Shown here: positions 31,921 to 42,250 of the stretch, one piece after another
Layout of the letters: every line of letters starts with the position of its first letter
Position numbering within the stretch: position 1 is the stretch's first letter
Assembly: GCF_000526335.1 (NCBI RefSeq)
Contig: NZ_JAFW01000001.1
Coordinates: 1,922,001-1,986,000, forward strand
Reading direction: 5' to 3'
DNA: 64,000 nt
DNA from: Arthrobacter sp. 31Y
GTDB lineage: Bacteria; Actinomycetota; Actinomycetes; Actinomycetales; Micrococcaceae
Program-made: the position numbers and the translations under genes
Notes under the pieces: model-generated
The model's input: the letters and a program-made list of their open reading frames with translations, nothing else
Database searches by the model: none
What the model was told of the DNA's origin: nothing

Positions 31921-34193
31921 CAGCGTCCTTCCAGCTTGGTGTTCGGTTCGGTCTGCCCGGCAGATTCTGTGGTGGCGCGTTCGGCGTTGCTGCGTTCCGG
32001 CTGCGCCGCCATGGATCCTTGGGCCTCCGTGGATGCCTGAGGCGTCCTGGCCGCCTGGGTAGCTCGAGTAGTGATCTTGGCGTCGCGATCAGCGAGCCGG
32101 GCAAACATATCGTTGTAAGCACTGAGATCGGCGTCGTTATTCCTGTCCGCGGCCCGATCCACCCGGCGGGTTTCCCGTTCGTCCGAACGGGACCACATCA
32201 CGGCGACGCCGATCGCAACCAGCAAGGTGGGAACCTCGCCGATGCCCCAGGCCACTGCACCGCCCAGTTGCTGGTCCCCAATGGCCGACGGACCCCAGGC
32301 CCTGCCCAGGTTTCCGAAGTAATCCGCGGCCAGCAGCCCTGTGCCACCCATGATGGCCACGCCAAAGAATGCGTGGAAGCCCATGGTGGCCAGCAAGAGA
32401 AGCAGGCGCATGGGGTACGGGGCGCGGCGGGGAAGAGGATCGCTACCGATCATGCTGAGCACAAAGATGTAGCCGGTCAGCAGGAAGTGCACGTTCATGA
32501 GCTCATGGCCAACGTGCTCACGCATCGCGAGGCTGAACAGGTCCGAGTAGTAGAACAGAACGATCGAGCCCGCGAAGTTGGCAGCGGCGAACAACGGGTG
32601 CGTCACGATCTGCGAGAACTTTGAGTGCACGAACAGCAGCAGCCATTCGCGGAGGCCCCGCGAGCCATGAACGCCTTCACCCCGGGCCGGCAAGGCCCGC
32701 AAAGCCAGGGTCACGGGGGAACCAAGGACCAGGAAGATCGGAGCCACCATGGTGAGGGCCATGTGATCCACCATGTGTGCAGAGAAGAGCACGCGTCCGT
32801 AAACAGCGGGCGGACCGGACGTGATGTACATGAGCACCACCAGCCCGATAAGCCAGTTCACCGTCCGGAACCACGACCACTTGTCGCCACGCTTACGGAC
32901 CTTGATGATGCCGAGGATATAGGACACGGCACCGAACAGGGCGACGCCCACCCATAGCCAGTCGAAGCGCCATTCAGTCAGCCAGCGTTCCGGGGTGAGC
33001 TCAGGTGGGAGCTCGTAGCCGGAGAGGATGAACGACGGCGAGGCATCGGGTGCGTAAGTGGTGGGCTGCGGCGGCGCCGAGCGTCCGAGCGCAACGGCGA
33101 GTCCCGACGTCGCGCCCATCACCAGCAGCTCAACCAAGACGAGTTGCCACAGCACTCGGCGGGCAGACATGGAACCGTTCTTTCCAAGCTGCGGGATAAC
33201 CCACTGGCGGTGCATGAAGCCGATACCACCCAGCACCAGCGTGGCTAGGGACTTGGCGATAATGAGCTGGCCGTAGGCGGAGCCGAAAAGGTCAGCGGGG
33301 TTTGTAACCCGTATGGCGGCGTTGATGACACCGGATGCGAACACCAGGACAAAGGCAAAACCGGCCAGCGACGAAAAACGGCGCAGGGTTTGCTCGGTGA
33401 TGTCCGGTGTTCCCTTGCTCCGGGAACCCGTGAGAATGCCGGAGAGAACCGCGAGCATGATGATGCCGCCCACCCAGGTGGACACACCCACGAGGTGGAG
33501 GCCCAGGGAGTTGATGGCACCCTCATGGTCGCTGGAGCTTGAGGAGTGCCCGATCAGTGCGGTGGGAATCAGGCCGATGAGGGCCAACAAGAGCGTGAAC
33601 GCCAGACCTGTCAGCGACCGGACGCCGAACAACGCAGTGGTGACAACGGCGGCGATGATGGTGACCGCGAGCCAGGCCTTGCCGGTCTCGATGTCCGTCA
33701 TGAAGTAGACCAAGGAACGTGTGAACTCCGCGTCCCCGGAGAGGCCCTGTCCTGCGACGTCTGCGTACGTCAGGACGAGAACCGCCACCGCGGACAATGT
33801 CCAGGCTGCGCCTGCTGCCGCCGCAACGGCCAAGGCCCGTGCGAAGGCCGGATGTTCGGGGGCTTCAAGGTCCTTTTCGCGGGACCGGGATCCGCCGATG
33901 TTCTTGGGTAGGATACCGACGGCAAAGATCAGGCCGCCAACCACCGTTGCCACCGACACATTGTGGATGGCTTTCGCGATGGGGAGGCCCCACCGGACCA
34001 ACTCGCCGGGATCGGAGACTTGCCGGGCAGCTGAGGCGCCGGAGAAGATGAGGGCCGCTGCGAGAGCCAGAAACAGCACCGCCAGACCAGCCAGTTGCCA
34101 CGGCAAGGAAATGCCCGCGACTGTAGTGCCTCCCCGCGCTCCTGGTTTGGGAACAGGCGAAGGGGCAGTAGCGGAGCTTCTTGCTGATGGCAC
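31920..34193 (-). CDS. Fused CopD-like copper protein and CtaG-type cytochrome c oxidase assembly protein
   Basis: A 757-residue polytopic membrane protein. The N-terminal half (about 30-370) has the eight-helix CopD/YcnJ-like pattern with SIGHNVS-like AIHNVSVATVVGGLIF and GLHLVGVSTWVGG. The C-terminal half (about 400-650) matches caa3_CtaG, with SAHMVDHMALTMVAP and NVHFLLTGYIFVLSMIG, histidines likely to bind copper. The last roughly 90 residues are hydrophilic. It would move or hold copper for cytochrome oxidase assembly. The GTG start at 34193 is taken from the open frame; no clear ribosome-binding site supports it. Confidence 0.87.
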   Translation of the reverse strand: MPSARSSATAPSPVPKPGARGGTTVAGISLPWQLAGLAVLFLALAAALIFSGASAARQVSDPGELVRWGLPIAKAIHNVSVATVVGGLIFAVGILPKNIGGSRSREKDLEAPEHPAFARALAVAAAAGAAWTLSAVAVLVLTYADVAGQGLSGDAEFTRSLVYFMTDIETGKAWLAVTIIAAVVTTALFGVRSLTGLAFTLLLALIGLIPTALIGHSSSSSDHEGAINSLGLHLVGVSTWVGGIIMLAVLSGILTGSRSKGTPDITEQTLRRFSSLAGFAFVLVFASGVINAAIRVTNPADLFGSAYGQLIIAKSLATLVLGGIGFMHRQWVIPQLGKNGSMSARRVLWQLVLVELLVMGATSGLAVALGRSAPPQPTTYAPDASPSFILSGYELPPELTPERWLTEWRFDWLWVGVALFGAVSYILGIIKVRKRGDKWSWFRTVNWLIGLVVLMYITSGPPAVYGRVLFSAHMVDHMALTMVAPIFLVLGSPVTLALRALPARGEGVHGSRGLREWLLLFVHSKFSQIVTHPLFAAANFAGSIVLFYYSDLFSLAMREHVGHELMNVHFLLTGYIFVLSMIGSDPLPRRAPYPMRLLLLLATMGFHAFFGVAIMGGTGLLAADYFGNLGRAWGPSAIGDQQLGGAVAWGIGEVPTLLVAIGVAVMWSRSDERETRRVDRAADRNNDADLSAYNDMFARLADRDAKITTRATQAARTPQASTEAQGSMAAQPERSNAERATTESAGQTEPNTKLEGR

Positions 34194-34260
34194 TTATCCA
34201 TTGTCCGCTACCTGCCGCCGGGCTGCGAATCGGAAGAGGCGCTATGTGCATTAACTAACA

Positions 34261-34294
34261 AAAGGGACGGCAACCAACAGGTTGCCGTCCCTTT
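34261..34294 (-). terminator. Terminator of the HU gene
   Basis: A perfect 15-bp stem (34261-34275 with 34280-34294, starting AAAGGGACGGCAACC) and a 4-nt loop lie just past the HU stop codon. In the minus direction the stem ends in CCCTTT, then TTGTTAG. Confidence 0.85.
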
Positions 34295-34315
34295 GAGGCA
34301 TTCGCCGAAGAGTAA

Positions 34316-34603
34316 TTACTTCTTCTTGGCGACAGCAGCCTTCAGCTTGGAACCAGCGGTCAGCTTGACGCTGTGGCCGGCTGCGATCTGGATGGTTTCG
34401 CCGGTCTGCGGGTTGCGGCCGGTGCGAGCTGCACGGTCGGTGCGCTCAACTGCGAGCCAGCCCGGGATGGTGATCTTTTCGCCAGCGGCGACAGAAGTCT
34501 CGAAAACTTCGAACAGTGCATCGAGCACGGAGTTGACTGCTGCCTGGCTGGTGCCAGCCTTGCCTGCTACCTCTGCAACGAGTTCACTACGGTTCTTAGC
34601 CAT
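34316..34603 (-). CDS. hup: HU family DNA-binding protein
   Basis: A 95-residue histone-like protein that bends and compacts DNA as a dimer. The signature is clear: [20 protein letters not shown] at the start, FETSVAAGEKITIPGW in the middle, and the minor-groove arm RTGRNPQTGETIQI (about residues 62-75) with the family's proline. It ends in AAVAKKK, without the long lysine-rich tail of mycobacterial HupB. The ribosome-binding site AGGAGG is 7 nt before ATG. Monocistronic, with its own terminator. Confidence 0.95.
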   Translation of the reverse strand: MAKNRSELVAEVAGKAGTSQAAVNSVLDALFEVFETSVAAGEKITIPGWLAVERTDRAARTGRNPQTGETIQIAAGHSVKLTAGSKLKAAVAKKK

Positions 34604-34832
34604 TTACGTCCTCCTGGACTCATACGTTTTTGAGCTTTCAAGCGGAATGCGAGCAAGCCACTGTTCGAAAACTTACCAGCTTGGGCTGGCATGGCCAGCA
34701 AATTCCGCGTGTTTCCGCGCCTTTTTGACCAAAATCACCGGATTTTCGGGCTTTTTAGGAGTGCTTTACGCCCTTGGCGTACCCTACGGCGTTGGCGTTG
34801 GGCACAAGCGGGCACTCCGCTGGCCGCCACAA

Positions 34833-35396
34833 CTAGAACAAAATGCGTTGAAACAACACGTGGTCCTGCCACTCCCCGGCTATCTGGAGATAGGACGGCG
34901 CTAGCCCTATCCGCTCGAATCCGGACCGTTTCAAGACGGCTTGGGAGGCTGCGTTGTGGGCCAGCGTAGCGGCCTGAATCCGATGAAGGCCGAGCTCCTT
35001 GGTGGCAATACTCGCGACGGCAGCTACCGCACCGGACGCTATGCCCTTGCCGGTGTATCCCTCATCCACCCAGTAGCCGAGGTTGGCGTTCAAGAAGGGG
35101 CCACGAACGATTCCGGAGAGCGTGAACATCCCCATGATTCCCTGTGCCGTGGTCAAAACCCAAGGCACCTCCGTGCCTTGTTCATAGAGATTCAGCTTGC
35201 CCTTTGTTACAGCCGCCTGACCCGCCGTACTGAAGAAGTCGTCAGCCCGGGCTGGTTCCCACGGTGCCAGGTGCGCACGGTTCCGCCGGTAAGCAGCGGC
35301 CAGGCCGGACGCGTCTGAAATTTCGAGCGGCCGCAGGATGAACGGAGCGGCGTCTCCGCCCGCTGATGCAATGTCCAGGTTTCGCGTGAGAATCAT
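34833..35396 (-). CDS. RimJ/RimL-type GNAT N-acetyltransferase
   Basis: A 187-residue acetyltransferase. FILRPLEISDASGLAAAYRR (about 20-39) and LGYWVDEGYTGKGIASGAV (about 106-124), with the acetyl-CoA loop GYTGKGIASG, then HRIQAATLAHNAASQAVLKR (about 139-158), place it in the RimJ/RimL group that acetylates ribosomal protein or small-molecule amines. It is divergent from the patatin leader region; the ATG (35396) has only a weak site. The roughly 230 bp downstream, up to the HU gene, contain nothing recognisable. Confidence 0.87.
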   Translation of the reverse strand: MILTRNLDIASAGGDAAPFILRPLEISDASGLAAAYRRNRAHLAPWEPARADDFFSTAGQAAVTKGKLNLYEQGTEVPWVLTTAQGIMGMFTLSGIVRGPFLNANLGYWVDEGYTGKGIASGAVAAVASIATKELGLHRIQAATLAHNAASQAVLKRSGFERIGLAPSYLQIAGEWQDHVLFQRILF

Positions 35397-35428
35397 TCCT
35401 GGACTCTACCGGCGGGCACCCGTGGCGA

Positions 35429-35457
35429 TTGCGCACCATTCAGCAGAGTGATAGTTT
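35429..35457 (+). promoter_or_regulatory. Promoter of the patatin leader transcript
   Basis: TTGCGC (35429-35434), 17 bp, TAGTTT (35452-35457). Transcription would begin at about 35464, exactly where the structured leader's first stem starts. Confidence 0.6.
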
Positions 35458-35463
35458 TCCGGT

Positions 35464-35596
35464 GATCGTGATTTTCGACAGGAGGTGAGTCCCATGAACG
35501 CAGTATCCATAGTGGGCGCTCCCCTGTCCACGATCCCGCGACTGAGTTAGTCGCTGTTGGGAGCGCCGGACAGGCAATTCGCGAAAGGCGACTCCC
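35464..35596 (+). promoter_or_regulatory. Structured leader RNA upstream of the patatin-like gene
   Basis: About 130 nt with several pairings that cannot all form at once. P1: GATCGTG (35464-35470) with CACGATC (35529-35535), continued by GACAGG (35477-35482) with CCTGTC (35523-35528), which would hide the leader ORF's ribosome-binding site. P2: GGCGCTCCC (35515-35523) with GGGAGCGCC (35559-35567). P3: CCTGTCC (35523-35529) with GGACAGG (35568-35574), which crosses P2 as a pseudoknot and competes with P1. P4: GCGACT (35538-35543) with AGTCGC (35549-35554); a second GCGACT lies at 35588-35593, next to the patatin start. Seen by inspection; no energy calculation was possible. Confidence 0.6.
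35494..35550 (+). CDS. 18-residue leader peptide ORF
   Basis: ATG at 35494 follows a near-ideal ribosome-binding site (AGGAGGTGAG) and the frame runs 18 codons (MNAVSIVGAPLSTIPRLS) to TAG at 35548-35550. The stop lies in the 3' arm of the small P4 hairpin and the ORF covers one arm each of P1, P2 and P3, so ribosome position would decide which pairings form. There is no codon run of a single amino acid as in amino-acid attenuators. The peptide itself need not have a function. Confidence 0.55.
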   Translation: MNAVSIVGAPLSTIPRLS

Positions 35597-36622
35597 ATGA
35601 ACACAACTCCTTCTTCTTTACACTTCACAGCGCCCTCTGACAGGCCCGGTTCCGATCAGCAGGTATCTCAGCAGCCCCACCCGACACTTGACGCGTCACA
35701 AAGAGTCCCCGCTGGCGAGCGGGCGCTGGTCCTCGGTGGGGGCGGGTCCACGGGCAACGCGTGGCTGATCGGCGTTATCGCTGGACTCTTCGACGCCGGG
35801 TTGGACGTAACCGCTGCGGACCTCACCGTTGGCACGTCGGCCGGTTCGACGGCGGCAGCTCAGTTGGTGGGGGAAACTCCCGTGGGGCTCTTTGATGCCG
35901 TCCTTGCCGCGGCGCCGCGGAAACCCGCAGTGATGGTTGGCACCGATTCCGCCCCAACCGTTGCTGCCAAACCGGCCAGCGAGCACAACGGAGCCGGGGC
36001 TGCGACCGACCATATGGAACGAACCGGCAAAATCCTGGAGGACTCCACGGACATGGCCGATATGCGACGCCGCATGGGTGCCGCTGCTTTGGACATGGCC
36101 TCAGCAATGGAGGGCTCCAGTGCTCGCTGGCGGGCCACCGTCGCAGCCCGGCTGTCCCATCAGGAATGGCCGGAACGACTGGTGCTACTCACCGCGGTTG
36201 ATGCCCGCACCGGTGAACCGGTAGTGTTCGACCGCCATAGCGGTGTGGACTTGGTTGACGCTGTGGCTGCCAGCTGTGCCAGTGGCTTCGCATACGCGGT
36301 AGGCAGCCATCACTATATCGACGGCGGCTACCGGGCAAACGCCGATAATGCCGACCTCGCGGCCGGGTACAGCCGTGTACTGGTGCTGTCACCCTTTGGC
36401 GGTAGGACACGGACTCCCCTGGCATGGGGCATGCACTTATCGGCACAAGTAGACGAACTACGCCGCAGCGGCAGCCGGGTTGAAACGGTCTTCCCGAGCA
36501 GCGAGGCTGAGCACCTGTTCGGCGTGAACGCGATGGACCTGTCGCTACGGCCGGCAGCTGCCCGGGCCGGCTTCGATCAGGGCAAAGCCTTGGCTGGTCC
36601 GCTCAGCGCATTCTGGCGCTAA
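35597..36622 (+). CDS. Patatin-like phospholipase family protein
   Basis: A 341-residue acyl hydrolase of the patatin fold. The oxyanion loop is GGGGSTGNAW (about residues 48-57), the nucleophile serine is in GTSAG (about 83-87), and the catalytic aspartate is in DGGYRANADNADL (about 240-252), completing the Ser-Asp dyad. The first 40 residues are hydrophilic without a signal peptide, so it is probably cytoplasmic or translocated by another route. ATG at 35597 is preceded by GAAAGG. It is expressed behind the structured leader. It ends 120 bp before the terminator of the first rRNA operon, which faces it. Natural substrate unknown. Confidence 0.9.
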   Translation: MNTTPSSLHFTAPSDRPGSDQQVSQQPHPTLDASQRVPAGERALVLGGGGSTGNAWLIGVIAGLFDAGLDVTAADLTVGTSAGSTAAAQLVGETPVGLFDAVLAAAPRKPAVMVGTDSAPTVAAKPASEHNGAGAATDHMERTGKILEDSTDMADMRRRMGAAALDMASAMEGSSARWRATVAARLSHQEWPERLVLLTAVDARTGEPVVFDRHSGVDLVDAVAASCASGFAYAVGSHHYIDGGYRANADNADLAAGYSRVLVLSPFGGRTRTPLAWGMHLSAQVDELRRSGSRVETVFPSSEAEHLFGVNAMDLSLRPAAARAGFDQGKALAGPLSAFWR

Positions 36623-36742
36623 CCCGTCGCCATGTCAGCCGCGACTGGAGGCCTTACAACCGCCAGTCGCGGCTGCTTGTAGATGCTTGAGGTCTTTATA
36701 GGTGGCATTCTGCCTGTGTGTGTTTTGGTTGTTAAATGCGGG

Positions 36743-36768
36743 GAGCCCCGACCGTGTGGTCGGGGCTC
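36743..36768 (-). terminator. Terminator of rRNA operon A
   Basis: GAGCCCCGACC (36743-36753) pairs with GGTCGGGGCTC (36758-36768), 15 nt beyond the 5S end. The counterpart of operon B is at 44163. Confidence 0.85.
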
Positions 36769-36782
36769 TCCGTGAATGGTTG

Positions 36783-36899
36783 TCCGGCGGTGTCCTACTC
36801 TCCCACACCCTCCCGGGTGCAGTACCATCGGCGCTGTGGGTCTTAGCTTCCGGGTTCGGAATGGGACCGGGCGTTTCCCCCACGCTATGACCGCCGTAA
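36783..36899 (-). rRNA. rrf: 5S rRNA, operon A
   Basis: On the minus strand it reads TTACGGCGGTCATAGCG at the 5' end, includes CCCGGTCCCATTCCGAACC and ends AGGACACCGCCGG, which pairs with the 5' end. About 117 nt, typical of actinobacterial 5S. Identical to the copy at 44203. Confidence 0.95.
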
Positions 36900-37010
36900 C
36901 TCTGTTACCCGTCCCCGTACGGTTTTTGGCCGTGGGGTGGGAAATCTTTGGGTTACAACTGTGGTGCTTGGTTGTTATTTTGTTGTGTTGGTTCCTGGAA
37001 CAAGGGATTT

Positions 37011-37038
37011 GTTGTTCGGGAACCACATAGTGGACGCG
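37011..37038 (-). other. 3' arm of the 23S processing stem, operon A
   Basis: On the minus strand this 28-nt stretch (CGCGTCCACTATGTGG...) is almost fully complementary to 40302-40329 upstream of 23S. The two would pair to form the stalk from which 23S rRNA is cut, probably by RNase III. The 5' arm contains the boxA-like TTTGAGAACT. The same arrangement exists in operon B (44427-44454 with 47738-47765). Confidence 0.7.
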
Positions 37039-37051
37039 TGCAGTGTGTTGT

Positions 37052-42250
<5,199 letters not shown>

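Follow-up and report, generated by a model that had tools for sequence, protein, structure and literature searches.

In the translation attenuators of the erm and cat genes, a leader ORF is combined with alternative hairpins, the start of the resistance gene being hidden in one of them, and the ribosome stalls at specific codons of specific leader peptides. A related arrangement in E. coli is the upstream ORF (uORF) toiL of the topAI-yjhQ transcript, on which stalled ribosomes release the hidden ribosome-binding site of the main gene; as far as the accessible part of the source describes it, the system responds to several classes of antibiotics, of which tetracycline and retapamulin stall the ribosome at the start codon, and concerns a single E. 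coli transcript with Rho-dependent termination downstream (PMC12121999). In Streptomyces, start-codon stalling on the uORFs are5sc and tiaA is caused by lincosamide, streptogramin A, and pleuromutilin antibiotics, and for these uORFs, together with those of whiB7/wblC, a terminator/anti-terminator action has been proposed, to which a transcription reporter of tiaA did not fit (accessible parts of PMC12421871 and PMC7157823). Lastly, the rifamycin-associated element (RAE) is common to the 5′-regions of different actinobacterial resistance genes, rox included; it is a 19-bp DNA palindrome with unknown mechanism according to the accessible parts of PMC12802891 and PMC10719064.

The leader analyzed here lies in a window of 64,000 nucleotides from Arthrobacter sp. 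31Y. A preliminary description of this DNA had proposed that a patatin-like gene is preceded by a structured leader RNA that contains an 18-codon ORF, can form mutually exclusive pairings, and has the design of a translation- or ligand-controlled switch. Like toiL, it combines a short uORF with RNA structure over the main ribosome-binding site, which would be released when the ribosome stalls on the uORF; unlike toiL, it serves five actinobacterial enzyme families and has a separate anti-sequestor arm (“anti arm”). It differs from the erm and cat attenuators in that the peptide beyond approximately residue five is read in class-specific frames, whereas the anti arm is kept as RNA. With are5sc, tiaA, and whiB7/wblC, as far as the accessible parts of their descriptions allow the comparison, it shares actinobacterial uORFs and a possible link to the WblC regulon, but the uORF peptides are unlike and no U-run was seen after the sequestor when the leaders were read. 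Taken together, the reading-frame, compensatory-change, and three-arm complementarity tests support the central idea, namely, a structured RNA whose 18-codon ORF is real and whose exclusive pairings form a switch responding to translation.

Results and Discussion

The patatin locus

All coordinates and sequences given in the preliminary description were correct on re-reading; the features of the locus, including those recognized in the present analysis, are collected in Table 1. The gene downstream of the leader can be classed from its sequence as encoding a patatin-like phospholipase, as the protein matched PF01734 (E 1e-9; 39.3 bits over a cut-off of 27.7) and contains both the G-x-S-x-G (GTSAG) and the D-G-G motif; no NCBIfam match was obtained. 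An rRNA operon lies on the opposite strand, its 5S gene ∼160 bases from the end of the patatin gene (window 36619-36900).

Table 1. Features of the leader and the patatin-like gene in the window.
Feature	Position	Strand	Basis or partner
−35-like hexamer TTGCGC	35429-35434	+	read in sequence
−10 hexamer TAGTTT	35452-35457	+	17-bp spacer to TTGCGC
Predicted transcript start	about 35464	+	from −10 position
Leader, ∼140 nt	35464-35596	+	upstream of patatin ATG (35597)
P1 5′ arm GATCGTG	35464-35470	+	partner CACGATC, 35529-35535
P1 3′ arm CACGATC	35529-35535	+	partner GATCGTG, 35464-35470
GACAGG / CCTGTC	35477-35482 / 35523-35528	+	pairing over the uORF Shine-Dalgarno sequence in the preliminary description
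uORF Shine-Dalgarno AGGAGG	35480-35485	+	most columns invariant or almost invariant in alignments A1 and A2
P3 5′ arm CCCAU over uORF start	35491-35495	+	partner 35512-35516; minimum-energy fold
uORF MNAVSIVGAPLSTIPRLS, 18 codons plus TAG (35548-35550)	35494-35550	+	conservation of frame and stop
Anti arm (anti-sequestor) GGCGCTCCC, uORF codons 8-10	35515-35523	+	partner GGGAGCGCC, 35559-35567
Stop-codon hairpin GCGACT/AGTCGC holding the uORF stop	35538-35554 (arms 35538-35543 / 35549-35554)	+	substitution counts
Switch arm GGGAGCGCC	35559-35567	+	two exclusive partners: anti arm and sequestor
GGACAGG	35568-35574	+	alternative partner of CCTGTCC in the preliminary description; pairing 47% canonical
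Patatin Shine-Dalgarno GAAAGG	35583-35588	+	AAGG nearly invariant in alignment A2
Sequestor GGCGACTCCC, GGCG + CUCCC, across the patatin ribosome-binding site	35587-35596	+	minimum-energy fold; partner 35559-35567
Patatin-like phospholipase gene, 341 aa	35597-36622	+	Pfam PF01734; GTSAG and DGG motifs

The promoter proposed earlier, with transcription starting in the vicinity of position 35464, agrees with the conservation of its −10 element: TANNNT directly precedes 53 of 72 patatin leaders (36 of 1,554 control windows) and 106 of the 110 leaders of a sample from the class, 12 of which precede patatin genes (9 of 2,419 control windows). The leader RNA of the window was predicted to fold with −56.4 kcal/mol (z −2.62), which was matched by 1 of 200 dinucleotide shuffles; its minimum-energy structure includes P1, P3, the stop-codon hairpin, and the pairing of GGGAGCGCC with the sequestor, the last of which had gone unnoticed in the preliminary description.

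In line with the earlier statement that no known riboswitch or attenuator class could be recognized, no family of Rfam 15 matched the leader at E values up to 1 (window 33000-39000), and none was found in eight leader loci; the first search for RNA families yielded nothing but rRNA genes and, downstream of patatin, a weak match present on both strands. No published description of the leader was found in the literature searched, which took in a minority of subscription journals and preprints, nor is it described in the passages of PMC11109978 that deal with uORFs or Streptomyces.

Distribution of the leader

Searching with the DNA sequence identified the leader in 33 of 99 genomes, including its own, all of a single genus. 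Of 110 patatin loci in total, 30 had been retrieved by leader similarity and were therefore excluded from estimating how frequently the leader occurs; among the remaining 80, found by protein similarity, it was present at 67. The 13 patatin loci without it include Paraburkholderia, and at least two of them (L066 and L098) have little upstream sequence. A covariance model built from 72 patatin leaders (R1) matched 106 of 394 genomes of the class. Downstream genes were read at 110 of the about 140 places listed by this search and comprised 58 α/β hydrolase, 23 Rox-like monooxygenase, 16 GNAT acetyltransferase, and 12 patatin genes, and one gene for a PrmC-related methyltransferase. They were assigned by their similarity to a single representative or two of each family, themselves verified against family and structure libraries. 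A second model built from 59 leaders (R2) matched 38 of 297 genomes of the order; of 396 genomes of the phylum, it matched 17, none of them outside the same class. It yielded 52 loci, some of them repeats of earlier places, of which 51 were classified (22 hydrolase, 18 patatin, 8 PrmC-related, 2 GNAT, and 1 Rox); the remaining one (L269) was recognized as patatin by eye. The leader of the patatin gene thus belongs to a conserved control element, copies of which precede several unrelated enzyme genes in many actinobacteria. The preliminary description had tied the leader to patatin, but the same element stands before four other enzyme families as well.

In a plasmid collection, 14 records were found with the leader of the window as the query and 35 with a Streptomyces-type leader; two of the latter were typed as conjugative. 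A patatin gene with the leader is present on a contig labeled Albitalea terrae (L049, 2413-2559), presumably a betaproteobacterium, which reflects either inter-phylum transfer or contamination.

A divergent subfamily of patatin leaders (L071, L055, L052, L061, L109, L058, L090, L100, L103, L118, and L119) was also observed. Its uORF reads MHTLS or MHALS, and CUCYC, or a similar sequence, just 5′ of the Shine-Dalgarno sequence replaces the CUCCC at the ATG.

The upstream reading frame

Of 180 leaders, 25 were not parsed by the patterns used, so that the tests of frame, ribosome position, nascent RNA, and spacing employed 155 leaders or slightly fewer (151 or 152), none of them from the PrmC class. 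The first stop codon in the real frame was located in the zone of the hairpin, 9-20 nt before GGAGCG, in 153 of the 155 leaders, compared with 5 and 18 in the shifted frames; as the leaders had been gathered by models or similarity, conservation of spacing is in part selected, which does not affect the comparison between frames. The same RNA is read in different frames depending on the class, as ...MGAPLQSTIARLR and similar in patatin uORFs and as ...TWVLPSGVTVGR in hydrolase uORFs. In hydrolase and Rox leaders, the segment before the anti arm was shortened in 12 of 79 cases, always by three or six bases; spacing that differed by one or two bases was observed in 5 of 12 GNAT and 6 of 61 patatin leaders. 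The apparent start codon was AUU, AUC, or GUU in 5 of the 155 leaders. In the PrmC class, all seven uORFs that could be parsed appear to start with AUU or AUC, preceded by the same strong Shine-Dalgarno sequence as elsewhere (L236-L238, L241-L243, and L246; by eye also L245 and L220).

As far as can be judged from sequence, the 18-codon ORF of the preliminary description is a real, translated uORF, and most likely its translation decides whether the enzyme is made. Amino-acid attenuation was rejected, as no run of a single codon was seen in the uORF peptides that were read. The ORF could also be incidental to a riboswitch that binds a ligand, or to a leader bound by a protein. Very high nucleotide conservation, for example the 19 invariant columns among the 72 patatin leaders, would suit this reading; a conserved frame and stop position, uORF lengths that change in threes in hydrolase and Rox leaders, a leader common to five unrelated target enzymes, and the lack of an Rfam match speak against it, and we consider it distinctly improbable. 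Nothing in the leader sequence appeared to point to a small-molecule ligand.

Pairings and the proposed three-arm switch

Conservation of the individual pairings was assessed in 176 leaders by counting substitution events on a tree. This test replaced an all-against-all covariation test, a tree-based G-test in which no pair reached an E value of 0.2 or less, so that covariation is modest and would, by itself, be thin evidence for the pairings of the leader. P1 was canonical in 91%, and the pair was kept on seven of eight branches with double changes, compared with one of eight over six slid partners. Compensatory change, proposed earlier as a check, is seen for P1. The pairing GGCGCTCCC/GGGAGCGCC was 98% canonical, with 49 substitutions kept versus 34.6 expected, mostly one-sided, and with three slid controls also above expectation. 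These counts support P1 and GGCGCTCCC/GGGAGCGCC as probable pairings. The stop-codon hairpin was 85% canonical (51 kept versus 35.8 expected), with one slid control equally high. For the sequestor, GGGAG/CUCCC located 5′ of the Shine-Dalgarno sequence was 86% canonical, with 29 substitutions kept versus 24.1 expected and two of two double changes kept; at the ATG, taken over all classes, it was 72% canonical without an excess (13 kept versus 15.7 expected). All five GGGAG/CUCCC pairs are possible at the patatin start in 57 of the 72 patatin leaders. No excess of kept pairs was found for P2 or for P3 (89% canonical).

Two pairings named in the preliminary description did not hold up in relatives: the alternative pairing CCTGTCC/GGACAGG was canonical in fewer than half of the leaders (Table 1), and the copy of the hairpin arm close to the patatin ATG showed no clear excess (73% canonical; 26 kept versus 22.5 expected). 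The former takes with it the proposed H-type pseudoknot, whose other component, GGCGCTCCC/GGGAGCGCC, is the pairing retained here. The 6-bp hairpin around the uORF stop itself stands, with the reservation given above for its control. GACAGG/CCTGTC, proposed to hide the Shine-Dalgarno sequence of the uORF, was 70% canonical without an excess of kept pairs and is likewise unsupported. What remains of the switch design proposed earlier are the mutually exclusive pairings and a probable response to translation.

Stronger sequence-based evidence than covariation is provided by the complementarity of three arms. The 155 parsed leaders and nine of the PrmC class (164 in total) were scored for a six-base core of the switch arm, requiring at least 5 of 6 with G-U pairs counted as half. 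Complementarity of the core to a uORF segment was found in 162 of the 164 leaders (66 in shuffles); a second complementary segment, lying downstream of the core but ahead of the main start, was present in 136 (32 in shuffles). This second partner was weak in GNAT leaders (4 of 12) and in one hydrolase group (6 of 12). Its site differs, being 5′ of the Shine-Dalgarno sequence in Rox and hydrolase leaders and beside the ATG in the patatin leaders of Arthrobacter; complementarity is kept irrespective of whether the sequestor lies 5′ or 3′ of the Shine-Dalgarno sequence. Three of the nine PrmC-class leaders (L237, L241, and L242) contain the core and both partners as GAGAG/CUCUC, a scheme to which L238 and L243 do not conform.

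For 61 patatin leaders, the median energy required to open the region from the Shine-Dalgarno sequence to the AUG was 10.5 kcal/mol when the switch arm was present and 6.3 kcal/mol when it was absent, and in 53 of the 61 the patatin start was more than 1 kcal/mol cheaper to open without it. In Rox, GNAT, and hydrolase leaders, where the sequestor lies 5′ of the Shine-Dalgarno sequence, the same region was slightly cheaper to open with it; in these groups, the sequestor closes the region from −20 to +12, but not that from the Shine-Dalgarno sequence to the AUG. Mutually exclusive pairings appear to be present in most leaders, while closure of the main start is clearly predicted for patatin leaders and less clearly where the sequestor is located 5′ of the Shine-Dalgarno sequence. 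Conserved −10 and Shine-Dalgarno elements might also mark a 5′-UTR for strong expression that is kept for mRNA stability or insulation and does not switch at all; since this leaves both the two exclusive partners of one arm and the fixed uORF stop without explanation, it is very unlikely.

Ribosome position and proposed mechanism

A ribosome at a start codon reaches ∼15 nt downstream; in 151 of 152 leaders, the anti arm begins 17-21 nt past the start of the uORF and hence slightly beyond this reach. The effect of a ribosome on the uORF was modeled in five groups, that is, patatin, Rox, GNAT, and two hydrolase groups. In nascent RNA, defined as a transcript ending just after GGGAGCGCC (a model built after the first one and with the anti arm in mind, hence not blind), the mean pairing of the anti arm with the switch arm was 0.67-0.83 for a ribosome on the start codon and 0-0.19 without a ribosome. 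On codon 3, it was 0-0.14, and on codons 7 and 11, it was 0; at the last codon, it was 0.35-0.51 in four of the five groups and 0.01 in one hydrolase group. For the leader of the window, the corresponding values were 0.97 at the start, 0.00 without a ribosome or at those later codons, and 0.70 at the last codon.

Full-length RNA at equilibrium behaved differently. Here, the sequestor was the main partner of the switch arm at most ribosome positions, and with the ribosome at the start, pairing of the anti arm was 0.28-0.30 in patatin leaders, 0.20 or less elsewhere, and 0.00 in the window. In the latter, the ribosome at the start lowered pairing of the sequestor from 0.90 to 0.01, the core of the switch arm then being unpaired with the anti arm, too. 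Of the two models, that of nascent RNA favors stalling at the start codon, whereas equilibrium of the full-length RNA favors the last codons. Because the sequestor prevails at equilibrium, a model based on stalling at the start requires that the switch arm be captured cotranscriptionally.

Such a model, in which the leader is a translation attenuator and a ribosome held at the uORF start opens the patatin start, is the one we favor, with slightly more confidence than doubt. Without a ribosome, the anti arm would be trapped by the folding of P1 to P3, which would also hide the start of the uORF; with the anti arm trapped, the switch arm would pair with the sequestor, and the patatin start would be closed. 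A ribosome moving along the uORF would cover the anti arm, with the same closed outcome. If, however, an antibiotic or another translation stress kept a ribosome at the start codon of the uORF, this ribosome would open P1 to P3 and leave the anti arm free just past its footprint; GGCGCTCCC could then capture GGGAGCGCC during transcription, before the sequestor exists, and patatin would be translated.

Alternatively, the leader could sense termination, in that a ribosome paused at the uORF stop covers the hairpin together with the beginning of GGGAG, thereby opening the main start; the signal would be slow termination rather than slow initiation. In agreement with this, opening of the main start cost least in each of the five groups when the ribosome occupied the last uORF codons, conservation of the stop position is strong, and one of the target families is related to the release-factor methyltransferase PrmC. 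A ribosome at the last codon also lowered pairing of the sequestor, in one hydrolase group from 0.89 to 0.15, but the drop was small in Rox (0.98 to 0.74). Moreover, PrmC-related genes are a minority in both surveys, and sensing of termination does not by itself account for the complementarity between anti arm and switch arm or for the spacing of the anti arm from the uORF start. We regard it as unlikely, more so than attenuation by a ribosome held at the start.

Promoters and possible inducers

The consensus of WblC/WhiB7-dependent promoters, taken from the accessible part of PMC7157823, reads GAAAWY, 3 bp, TKGMNN, 16-19 bp, TANNNT. Its strict published form was found upstream of 5 of the 110 leaders. 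A relaxed WblC-like pattern, chosen after the sequences had been read, was present at 21 of 23 Rox, 14 of 16 GNAT, and 34 of 58 hydrolase leaders (69 of 97 together), compared with 0 of 12 patatin leaders, 0 of 1 PrmC leader, and 0 of 1,496 control windows; in the larger patatin set, 3 of 72 leaders carried it. The relaxed pattern suggests translation-targeting antibiotics as possible inducers, which has little bearing on the patatin copy. At most Rox and GNAT and many hydrolase copies, the stress that acts through the proposed attenuation would, by way of such a promoter, also induce transcription.

The presence of Rox among the targets raises the question whether the leader is the RAE, which controls rifamycin-resistance genes of actinobacteria and which, like the leader, is a 5′-region element common to different genes. 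Indeed, at 23 of the 110 leaders, the downstream gene resembles one that passes the cut-off for rifampin monooxygenase, and 13 of 15 leader-bearing Rox matched by place pass this cut-off themselves. Those 15, however, scored 792-847 bits, compared with 853-939 for the 30 top-scoring Rox loci, and at none of these 30 did the leader stand before rox; the single strong match belongs to a divergent hydrolase gene. As a rifamycin element of canonical rox, the leader is thus ruled out. The palindrome described in the accessible parts of PMC12802891 and PMC10719064 sets the RAE apart from the leader as well, and that the two are identical is hardly conceivable. In one locus (L283, 1100-1251, minus strand), the leader and its α/β hydrolase gene (L176) are oriented divergently from a high-scoring rox without the leader.

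Implications

The leader may represent an undescribed, horizontally portable class of actinobacterial attenuators, in which the arms are conserved more than the peptide. A single sensor of ribosome stalling would then control five unrelated enzyme families, which would make up a hidden regulon of candidate antibiotic-modifying enzymes; we judge the chances of this to be about even. If true, an RNA leader of ∼140 nt would mark a stress-induced enzyme regulon in the 106 genomes of the class sample in which it was found. To our knowledge, no substrate has been assigned to the hydrolase, GNAT, and patatin members, of which patatin and the small hydrolase would be direct candidates for acting on ribosome-targeting drugs. 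According to the accessible part of PMC10719064, the RAE was used as bait and led to helR; the present leader could likewise serve as bait for new antibiotic-inactivating enzymes. It also bears on the question whether simple spacing, rather than an arrest peptide, can suffice for sensing a ribosome stalled at a start codon.
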